Shown: positions 22,772-25,382 of the stretch, piece by piece
Layout of the letters: each line of letters begins with the position of its first letter
Position numbering within the stretch: position 1 is the first letter of the stretch
IMG/VR virus record: IMGVR_UViG_3300018876_000089
Coordinates: 1 to 25,382 of that record
Direction: 5' to 3' (one strand)
Source: a virus
Length of the DNA: 25,382 bases
Position numbers and translations under genes: made by a program
Notes under the pieces: generated by a model
What the model saw: only the letters and a program-made list of their open reading frames with translations
Told to the model about the DNA's origin: nothing
The model's database searches: none

Positions 22772-23404
22772 ATGTTAATATTTAAAGAACTAATTTATAA
22801 CGGCGTTCGGTCGGGTGAAATTCCCGCCAGAACCAAATCGTCTAGAGAATGGTATAGAGAAACTGCTAGGCAGTCTTTCAGTGAAATTCAACCAGGCGAA
22901 AGTAGTGATAAGTTTAGGCCTGGAAATGTTGTAAAACAATTTTCCGAAAAAAGACGAGTATCGAGACCGGAACTGGGAATGATGTACTCATTTAAGTACG
23001 ACCCAAAACATAAAAAAACTTTGCCGTATTATGATACATTTCCGTTGATATTTCCGGTGGAACAATACAACGACGGTATACTTGGGATCAATTTTCATTA
23101 TTTGCCATTAGCTGGACGGGCCAAACTTATGGACGCACTATACACAGTGTCTTCGGACAAAAGATATAACGAGAGGACTAAAATATTGGCAACGTATGAT
23201 ATTTTAAAAGGTGCATCAAAGTTTTCTGGGTTTCGACCAACATTAAAACGATATTTGTATGAATACGTAAAAACTCCATTTTTGGAAATTACAGCTGCGG
23301 AGTGGGATATTGCATTATTTTTGCCGATGGAAAGATTTAAGAAGGCACAAGCATCTGAAGTGTGGGCAGACGCGACTAAAAAATCAAAAAGGAAAGGTAG
23401 GTAA
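22772..23404 (+). CDS. conserved T4-like phage protein next to gp4, 210 aa (possible gp2 analogue)
   Basis: The central block PELGMMYSFKYDPKHKKTLP (residues 66-85), followed by YYDTFPLIFPVE, GILGINFHYLP and RAKLMDALY, looks like a conserved family I associate with marine T4-like phages. I cannot give it a proven function. The C-terminus is lysine/arginine-rich (TKKSKRKGR) and could contact DNA. In T4, gene 2 (DNA end protector) adjoins gene 4, so this could be the gp2 counterpart, but that rests on synteny only. A TATAAATA element ends six bases before the ATG, and no convincing Shine-Dalgarno is seen. The stop overlaps the next ATG by one base. Confidence 0.8.
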   Translation: MLIFKELIYNGVRSGEIPARTKSSREWYRETARQSFSEIQPGESSDKFRPGNVVKQFSEKRRVSRPELGMMYSFKYDPKHKKTLPYYDTFPLIFPVEQYNDGILGINFHYLPLAGRAKLMDALYTVSSDKRYNERTKILATYDILKGASKFSGFRPTLKRYLYEYVKTPFLEITAAEWDIALFLPMERFKKAQASEVWADATKKSKRKGR

Positions 23405-24162
23405 TGGCGAAGAAGTCTAATTTTTCATTATCAGGATTGCAATCCGTTCTTAAGGGTGGTATCGCTAGGCCAAATTTATTTGCGGTTGAGATTGGTGTGC
23501 CGAATGTGATTAAAGGTAGATGGAGGCAACTGCAATATGCAGAATATAATGGCCGATTAAATAACACTGATCCTAATTTGGGTATTTTTATTAAAGCTGG
23601 ATCGTATTTTTCGGAAACATCCGAAAATGTTGGTAAGTGGTTTGTTGATGCGTTAGTGGATGCAGCAAGTAGTTCAAAGAGAACTCAAAAGTCCATGCCG
23701 TTTATTATAGAATCGACAGAATTTCCTGGCAAAACTATCTCTGCAGTAGAAGACAACTATTCTGGTCCGGCAATTTTAATACCAAATGATATGACATATA
23801 ATGATATCACTTTTACATTTTTGGCTGCAGCCGGAATGAAACAAAGAGCCTTTTTTGATGTTTGGATGGAGGGGATAGTCGTACCAGGCACCTTGCGTGT
23901 GGGCAGTGACGCACCATTAACAGGCCGGGCAGGAACTGTTGCATATTATGATGATTGTATAGCTGACGTTAAAATTCATCAACTGGGTGATGCCGGCCAG
24001 ATAATTGCAACAACATACCTAAATAATGCATTCCCAATAGCAATGAGTTCTATGAATTTGAATTGGGAAGAACGTGACACATATCAAAGATTTTCTGTGA
24101 CGTTTAATTATCGTTATCACAATGTTAATTATACAGCAGAATCAGAACCATTTACAGTTTGA
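23404..24162 (+). CDS. 54: tail-tube-fold protein, probable gp54 tube initiator, 252 aa
   Basis: The N-terminus has GLQSVLKGGIARPNLFAVEI, the opening of many tail-tube-fold proteins. FIIESTEFPGKTISAVEDNY, GPAILIPNDMTYNDITFTFL and the ending NLNWEERDTYQRFSVTFNYR, then YHNVNYTAE, also fit the gp19/gp54/gp48 fold. It is longer than T4 gp19 (163 aa), shorter than T4 gp54 (320 aa), and lies beside gp26 and gp51 rather than beside the sheath gene. I therefore favour gp54, the baseplate tube initiator, over the main tube gp19. An insertion at about residues 35-65 (QYAEYNGRLNNTDPNLG) departs from a minimal tube monomer. A purine-rich AGGTAGG lies ahead of its start. Confidence 0.75.
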   Translation: MAKKSNFSLSGLQSVLKGGIARPNLFAVEIGVPNVIKGRWRQLQYAEYNGRLNNTDPNLGIFIKAGSYFSETSENVGKWFVDALVDAASSSKRTQKSMPFIIESTEFPGKTISAVEDNYSGPAILIPNDMTYNDITFTFLAAAGMKQRAFFDVWMEGIVVPGTLRVGSDAPLTGRAGTVAYYDDCIADVKIHQLGDAGQIIATTYLNNAFPIAMSSMNLNWEERDTYQRFSVTFNYRYHNVNYTAESEPFTV

Positions 24163-24193: not shown

Positions 24194-24934
24194 ATGGCTT
24201 TACCTAAAATTAAAACCCCGTTACACGAACTAACTTTGCCGTCATCTGGTAAAACTGTGCAATATCGGCCATTCCTTGTCAAGGAACAAAAGATTTTGTT
24301 GATGGCACTTGAGAGTAGTGAACAATCAGAAATGTTACGTGCAATTAAACAGATTATCATTAATTGTACCGTTGATGAACTTGATGTAGAAACATTGCCA
24401 ATGTTTGATCTTGAATATGTATTTTTAAAACTTCGAGCAAAATCGGTTGGTGAAATTGTGGACCTTAAATTGTCACACCTCGGAGGTAAAAATTCGGAAG
24501 ATGAAGAGTGTACCCACAGATTTGATTACAGTTTAGATTTGATGGCCATCGAAATTTTCCGAGAAGAGGGTCACGAACCAAAAATTATACTCGACGAAGA
24601 AAGTGGAATTGGTGTTGTGTTGAAATATCCAACACTTAATATGGCCGATAAGATCGAACAGGCTGCTAATCAATCTCAAATTGAAACCATCACTGATATG
24701 GTTGTTACTTGTGTTGATGTTATTTTCGATGCGGAAGAGGTATACCCATCGAGTGAAACTTCTCCTAGTGAAATTGCAGAGTTTTTAAATGATCTTTCAC
24801 AAGAACAATTTGAAAAAATCACAAATTTTTTCAGTAGTATGCCAAAATTGAAAAAAGAAATCGAATGGACATGTCCCAAGTGTGGGAAAGATGAAACATC
24901 GGTGTTGGAGGGAATGGCAAATTTTTTCGGATAG
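24194..24934 (+). CDS. 26: baseplate hub assembly protein gp26 (T4_baseplate family), 246 aa
   Basis: The N-terminus LHELTLPSSGKTVQYRPFLV, followed by KEQKILLMALES, is characteristic of the gp26-type hub assembly family. So are the DxxxLPxFDLEYVFLKLRAK and VVLKYPTLN segments. A CPKCG motif (Cys227 and Cys230) near the C-terminus, with a Cys-Thr-His near residue 102, suggests a zinc site. An AGGAG Shine-Dalgarno lies ahead of the ATG. The last codons form a tandem slippery sequence, and the stop follows at once, so the protein is probably made in two forms, one extended into the gp51-like frame. In T4, gp26 (208 aa) is needed for central hub assembly. Confidence 0.85.
   Translation: MALPKIKTPLHELTLPSSGKTVQYRPFLVKEQKILLMALESSEQSEMLRAIKQIIINCTVDELDVETLPMFDLEYVFLKLRAKSVGEIVDLKLSHLGGKNSEDEECTHRFDYSLDLMAIEIFREEGHEPKIILDEESGIGVVLKYPTLNMADKIEQAANQSQIETITDMVVTCVDVIFDAEEVYPSSETSPSEIAEFLNDLSQEQFEKITNFFSSMPKLKKEIEWTCPKCGKDETSVLEGMANFFG
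24919..24928 (+). promoter_or_regulatory. tandem -1 ribosomal frameshift slippery site
   Basis: In the gp26 frame the codons read GCA AAT TTT TTC GGA TAG. This contains two overlapping X XXY YYZ heptamers: A AAT TTT at 24919-24925 and T TTT TTC at 24922-24928. A -1 slip on the second enters the frame that reads through TTT CGG ATA GGC TTG TCT and continues to the stop at 25132-25134. The gp26 stop is the second codon after the site. I found no convincing stem-loop downstream, so the efficiency cannot be judged. Confidence 0.7.
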
Positions 24935-25134
24935 GCTTGTCTCATGATAACCTTTTGAATTATTATAAATCAAACTTTGCAATGATGCAACATCATAAAT
25001 ATAGTTTGACGGAATTGGACAATATGATGCCATTTGAGAGGGAGATATACATAGCCCTCTTGACTGAATATGTGAAAAAAGAAAATGAACGTATAGAAGA
25101 ACAAAATAGGAAATCTGCGTCTCGAAGACGCTAA
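24928..25134 (+). CDS. 51: gp51-like hub assembly frame, probably made as -1 frameshift extension of gp26
   Basis: The frame encodes RIGLSHDNLLNYYKSNFAMM, then QHHKYSLTELDNMMPFEREI, then YIALLTEYVKKENERIEEQN. This resembles the gp51/tail-assembly-chaperone T-type domain, as I recall it, in T4-like marine phages. The frame is open only from 24895, after a TGA at 24892-24894. The only candidate starts are ATA, ATC and a TTG at 24937. The first ATG, at 24982, would discard the LSHDNLLNYY block. A slip at the upstream slippery site gives a 313-aa gp26-gp51 fusion (245 + 68 residues) with continuous family character. If made independently it would be about 65 aa from the TTG. T4 gp51 is longer (249 aa). 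A probable tape-measure gene follows. Confidence 0.75.
   Translation, partial: RIGLSHDNLLNYYKSNFAMMQHHKYSLTELDNMMPFEREIYIALLTEYVKKENERIEEQNRKSASRRR
25117..25131 (+). other. perfect 6-bp hairpin at the end of the gp51-like frame
   Basis: GCGTCT, a CGA loop and AGACGC form a perfect stem at the last codons of the gp51-like frame, 20 bases before the next ATG. No T-run follows, so it is not a typical terminator. It may protect the message or be a by-product of the arginine codons. Confidence 0.4.
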
Positions 25135-25151: not shown

Positions 25152-25382
25152 ATGGCATCAAATCTACAAAGATTGGGCGGATACATAGGCGGCAAAATCA
25201 GCAATGCAAAGGATAGCCTAGTTGCAGGCGCCAAAGCGTCTGTGTATGAAGCTAACCCTGCAATGTTCTCTGGTATAGAATCTGGAATATCTTCATTACG
25301 CAAATCGTTCGATAAAAACAATACCGATAATGAAAAAAGGGCTCGTGAAGAGCAAGCAAGAAACAATCGGTCTCGGGGTGTC
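25152..25382 (+). CDS. start of probable tape-measure/gp29-type tail protein (partial)
   Basis: An ATG at 25152 opens a frame that runs off the window with no stop: MASNLQRLGGYIGGKISNAK, then DSLVAGAKASVYEANPAMFS, then GIESGISSLRKSFDKNNTDN, then a Lys/Arg/Glu-rich helical stretch. It lies 17 bases after the gp51-like frame. In lambda-like and many other tailed phages the tape-measure gene follows the frameshifted chaperone pair, and in T4 the hub and tape protein genes 27, 28 and 29 follow gene 51. The call rests on that position and the Ala/Gly-rich helical start; only 77 residues are visible. Confidence 0.6.
   Translation, partial: MASNLQRLGGYIGGKISNAKDSLVAGAKASVYEANPAMFSGIESGISSLRKSFDKNNTDNEKRAREEQARNNRSRGV

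Follow-up and report, generated by a model that had tools for sequence, protein, structure and literature searches.

Are gp26 and gp51, annotated in hundreds of genomes as "baseplate hub" and "baseplate hub assembly catalyst", respectively, two genes or, as appears very probable, two readings of one gene? The window analysed here is an entire virus record of 25,382 bases, and the gp26/gp51 junction lies close to its right end; the features of the window described below are on its + strand. The first reading frame, gp26 (24194..24934, with the ATG start codon at 24194), encodes 246 aa, matches Pfam PF12322 (E 1.5e-62) and phrog_150 (E 7.9e-68), and is predicted to be the short form of a tail assembly chaperone (TAC-N). 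The gp26 of T4 itself aligns with the gp26 profile (hhalign E 5e-21). The frame that follows, gp51 (TAC-C), matches phrog_634 (E 1.9e-29), i.e., both frames are members of the T4 gp26/gp51 family. An NCBIfam search yielded nothing useful, and sequence profile searches against solved structures gave no significant matches for either gp26 or gp51.

The final codons of gp26 are ATG GCA AAT TTT TTC GGA TAG. Two overlapping slippery heptamers, A AAT TTT (24919..24925) and T TTT TTC (24922..24928), are both present in the zero frame, as pointed out in the initial annotation, which also placed the stop two codons on: the TAG (24932..24934) is indeed the second codon past T TTT TTC, with one sense codon (GGA) in between. 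The gp51 frame is -1 relative to gp26, is opened by TGA at 24892-24894, and extends through 24895..25134, where it is closed. The claim that neither ATG nor GTG precedes the conserved block in this frame is correct as well, the first ATG (24982) being within the conserved domain; the sole common-start candidate ahead of the block is TTG 24937, and the next TTG is at 24955. A slip on T TTT TTC would yield a predicted fusion protein of about 313 aa (...GMANFF-RIGLSHDNLLNYYK..., with the junction NFF-RIG), in which the gp51 part, read from 24928, accounts for 68 aa. The NFF-RIG peptide would be identical for a slip on A AAT TTT.

The junction was compared across 160 IMG/VR loci that contain relatives of gp26 or gp51, plus annotated records of phages belonging to several families; iterated profiles of the two proteins were run against ORFs delimited stop to stop. 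Separate, overlapping gp26 and gp51 ORFs form 121 distinct junctions, of which 120 are counted here, the exception being Campylobacter phage CP21. All 120 have T TTT TTN in the gp26 frame and gp51 at -1, i.e., a second ORF overlapping the end of the first one at -1 with a slippery site, the layout of the G/GT type. They span phages of cyanobacteria, Pelagibacter, Methylophilales, Vibrio and Rhizobium (S-PM2, P-SSM2, Mosig, Melnitz, KVP40, phiM7 and RHph_N34 among the named ones) and group into 95 clusters at 90% gp26 identity, 63 at 70% and 27 at 50%. This comparison supports the -1 frameshift reading proposed in the initial annotation, heptamer and phase being retained across 63 lineages with less than 70% gp26 identity.

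Away from the junction, only 28 of the 27,484 codon positions in the gp26 of the relatives carry T TTT TTN (~1.4% per 14-codon stretch), so its presence at every junction is beyond chance. The heptamer is followed by the stop after 3 nt in 97 junctions, 0 nt in 15, 6 nt in seven and 24 nt in one. TTT is the first slip codon in every case, and TTC, TTT, TTA or TTG is the second; the codon ahead of the two is AGT (69), AAT (41) or GAT (6), and also GCT, TCT or ACT. Thus, all six T are invariant while the residues vary (S, N, D, A or T in the preceding position and F or L in the second slip codon); in 33 of the 120 junctions, the run consists of seven T. Given that the amino acids shift and the six T stay, the heptamer itself is, as far as can be read from the alignment, under selection. 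The overlapping A AAT TTT is optional: the preceding codon varies among the relatives and AGT TTT is the commoner form, which rules it out as the main site and leaves T TTT TTN as the site, so that only one of the two heptamers initially pointed out is conserved.

The decamer is not sufficient by itself to mark the frameshift site, given that an identical second AAATTTTTTC is present in the same frame within gp26, at 24823-24832. A -1 shift there would run into TAG within two codons, and no Shine-Dalgarno (SD)-like sequence is found ahead of this decoy. At 12 of the 28 additional T TTT TTN sites in relatives, the distance to the true site downstream is the same as for this decoy (96 nt).

The true site is preceded by GGAGG (24907..24911), an SD-like element that did not figure in the initial annotation, with its 3' end exactly 10 nt before the heptamer. 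GGAGG occurs at the same 10-nt spacing in 59 of the 120 junctions. In the junctions that encode Leu-Glu-Gly, GGAGG is spelled in 55 of 70, vs 4.4% expected from the Leu and Glu codon use of the same genes, and this excess persists once the sequences are clustered at 70% identity, where the count is 21 of 29. An SD-like match of at least 4 bases is present in the upstream interval at 97 of 120 true sites vs only one of the 28 other T TTT TTN sites in gp26. In E. coli dnaX, the SD stimulator is located about 10 nt upstream of the slip site. The position of GGAGG 10 nt upstream points to a stimulator of the dnaX kind, i.e., an anti-SD-complementary sequence at a set distance ahead of the slip site. 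On this evidence, we lean towards the view that, in much of this phage family, the candidate GGAGG element has been selected to stimulate frameshifting, that it would act by pairing with the host 16S rRNA and that it would also help to set the true site apart from the identical T6 sites inside gp26. In the literature searched, we found no prior description of a conserved GGAGG or of its contrast with the decoy sites, and this element may be the newest part of the present analysis. It would provide a testable explanation for the way in which the ratio of the short (TAC-N) to the extended (TAC-NC) form is set and for the silence of the decoys in gp26.

The region downstream of the site folds somewhat better than its shuffles on average (mean z of -1.4 to -1.9, vs -0.2 to -0.5 in controls), and the case for a downstream stimulatory structure is weak and unproven. 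A conserved 3' hairpin right after the site (24937-24950) was considered and rejected: 81% of the cells are paired, and covariation is no greater than in shuffles. A short hairpin on ATGATGCAACATCAT (24981-24995 in the window), ~52 nt past the slip site and beyond the usual stimulator spacing, follows from the coding of Met-Met-Gln-His-His.

In T4, the gp26 and gp51 genes are located on opposite strands. T4 gp51, a single ORF in which PF12322 spans residues 1-201 and is followed by the gp51 domain (205-244), hence is a natural TAC-N plus TAC-C chain, and T4 gp26 is TAC-N alone, so that T4 has no need for a frameshift; the end of T4 gp26, EFFELL, is coded with TTC TTT, i.e., lacks the heptamer. 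A gp26-like region and gp51 are also joined in a single ORF in Aeromonas 50AhydR13PP, phiEap-3 and pv27 (with Slopekvirus among the groups named) and, as judged from the ORF length and a gp51 match within, in the Campylobacter phages IBB_35 and WX1.

In Campylobacter phage CP21, gp51 is split across two frames (locus L173, 2992-3183). The possibility that this phage represents a +1 variant without the heptamer was ruled out because its relatives IBB_35 and WX1 carry gp51 in one 741-bp ORF; given that these ORFs are unbroken, the break in CP21 is probably a one-base indel in a single ORF.

The AlphaFold2 model of gp26 (mean pLDDT 88.7, pTM 0.81), for which only window and IMG/VR sequences were supplied, resembles tail assembly chaperones. 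The first two rows of the Foldseek output are the HK97 tail assembly chaperone 2ob9, with weak E-values (0.39-0.41), and VIA-align gives Z of 8.2 for 3fgx, 7.4 for 2ob9, 7.3 for 3klu (YqbN) and 6.1 for 5ir0, compared to 2.9 for the next row, with all four top matches within gp26 residues 1-95. The entry title of 2ob9 identifies it as a tail chaperone, and 3fgx and YqbN are of the same kind. The predicted fold of gp26 is thus the one expected of TAC-N; given the weak Foldseek E-values and the fact that a Z near 8 is possible from a common arrangement, this chaperone-like fold is support for the assignment, not proof.

The gene neighbourhood is also compatible with this assignment. Upstream of gp26, in the place of lambda V, is a tail-tube-like gene (23404..24162; phrog_45, tail tube, E 1.1e-35; phrog_3629, tail tube protein). 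Downstream of gp51, a long, tape-measure-like ORF starts at 25152 and is cut by the contig end at 25382; the 77 aa encoded in the window share 49% identity with the N-terminal end of an ORF of 936+ aa in another of the compared loci (L088). Matches of the downstream ORFs to tape measure proteins are weak (phrog_3981, E 0.0017, for L088; phrog_305, E 1.8e-5, for phiM7). The order of tube-like gene, gp26, gp51 and long tape-measure-like ORF fits lambda V-G-T-H, with the last gene being the least certain. The gene order is thus compatible with the lambda-like arrangement perceived in the initial annotation, the tape measure gene remaining its weakest element; the continuous T4-type protein, the chaperone-like predicted fold and the gene order agree, as far as sequence can tell, with its suggestion that gp26/gp51 is the counterpart of G/GT.

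Taken together, these observations make it highly probable that gp26 and gp51 are a TAC-N/TAC-NC pair, i.e., a single tail assembly chaperone gene from which -1 frameshifting yields a second product. Most ribosomes would stop at TAG 24932 and release TAC-N (gp26), whereas a minority would slip back by one base on T TTT TTC, with tRNA-Phe re-pairing on UUU UUU, and continue in the -1 frame to produce TAC-NC. By analogy with E. coli dnaX, base pairing of GGAGG with the 3' terminus of 16S rRNA in the elongating ribosome probably raises the slip rate. By analogy with lambda gpG/gpGT, TAC-N would be expected to coat the tape measure protein from the adjacent downstream gene, and the TAC-C part to recruit tube subunits.

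Database annotation assumes instead that gp51 is a separate protein, which in the window would require reinitiation at TTG 24937, just past the gp26 stop. In several relatives, an ATG is located 2-8 nt past the first base of the stop codon of gp26, and database records do annotate gp51 as a gene of its own. However, the gp51 frame lacks any ATG, GTG or TTG before its core in 82 of the 120 junctions, and in none of the 38 that have such a candidate start is it preceded by an SD-like sequence; a search of the relatives for a gp51 start with its own SD sequence and no slippery site thus comes out against this possibility, the heptamer being present in all 120. In the window, the GGAGG is 25 nt from TTG 24937, too distant to serve that start. 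Entry far upstream is not possible either, given the position of the last stop in the -1 frame, which precedes the heptamer by a median of 24 nt (120 junctions). A separate gp51 would leave the invariant in-phase T6 and the fixed -1 phase unexplained, and the T4-type relatives have both parts in one chain. We regard it as very improbable as an alternative to the fusion. In KVP40 (L167 3016), phiM7 (L168 3019-3022) and RHph_N34 (L169 3016), an ATG in the gp51 frame overlaps the gp26 stop, so that free gp51 is possible in these phages besides the fusion.

The invariance of the six-T run, extended to seven in part of the junctions, could also be accommodated by slippage of RNA polymerase rather than the ribosome, which would join the two frames in a subset of the mRNAs. 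Six or seven T is a short run for such a process, given that bacterial transcript slippage is described on runs of 9 A or T (PMC5009743). Moreover, polymerase slippage has no requirement for a codon phase, whereas the run keeps to it every time, and the GGAGG at a fixed 10 nt would have no explanation, all of which makes this scenario very improbable. Homopolymers are error-prone and a single-ORF form does exist in T4-type phages, so a miscalled T run in what is really one ORF, or else a chance overlap of two genes, might be invoked. Nevertheless, the same layout is found in 120 distinct junctions from both isolates and metagenomes, finished genomes included, and a separate contig (L006) has the same junction sequence as the window; we consider such an artefact or coincidence extremely improbable. 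Ribosomal frameshifting on T TTT TTN remains the reading that we favor.

The gp26/gp51 case belongs to a kind already described. The statement in the initial annotation that frameshifting was not known to be established for gp26/gp51 of T4-like phages is out of date in view of the work of Vladimirov, Gautam and Davidson (2022, Virology 566:9-15), the title of which is cited in PMC12846349 and PMC10885494. No paper joining gp26, gp51 and a frameshift in T4-like phages was found in the open literature searched, and the Vladimirov study surfaced through citations. Its abstract reportedly states that the TAC genes of T4-like phages were identified and that several groups have retained frameshifting, with T4 itself said to use the separate genes 26 and 51. 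Very probably, that study deals with the same genes and reaches the same conclusion as drawn here. Some T4-like phages are described as an exception, with two genes, one short and one a long fusion gene (PMC10885494).

Among the known systems, lambda G/GT similarly has its -1 shift close to where the short ORF ends, upstream of the tape measure gene, and produces a short and an extended form (PMC5009743), whereas gp26/gp51 differs in its T TTT TTN site, the upstream GGAGG and the larger N-domain (246 aa). Residues 1-87 of the gp26 model find some of their best fold matches in the HK97 chaperone 2ob9 and in YqbN 3klu, but a further 150 residues of the model have no such match. In E. coli dnaX, the -1 shift is likewise aided by an SD sequence (PMC5009743), but that system has an A AAA AAG site, a 3' stem-loop and 50% efficiency, and its shift leads to a shorter product; in gp26/gp51, there is no proven 3' structure, and the shift would lead to a longer product. 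The tail chaperones of Vandenendeviridae and Andersonviridae also have a conserved poly-T -1 site at the TAC-N end, before the tape measure gene; their conserved motif is, however, GTTTTT, and these are other phage families (PMC12846349).

A marine T4-like phage is thereby assigned its tail chaperone pair, and genomes in which gp26 and gp51 carry the baseplate hub annotations should be re-annotated with a joined CDS. In two cyanophage records, ACG-2014j (L005 3013-3198) and S-CAM4 (L177 3013-3195), gp51 is unannotated although its frame is intact.
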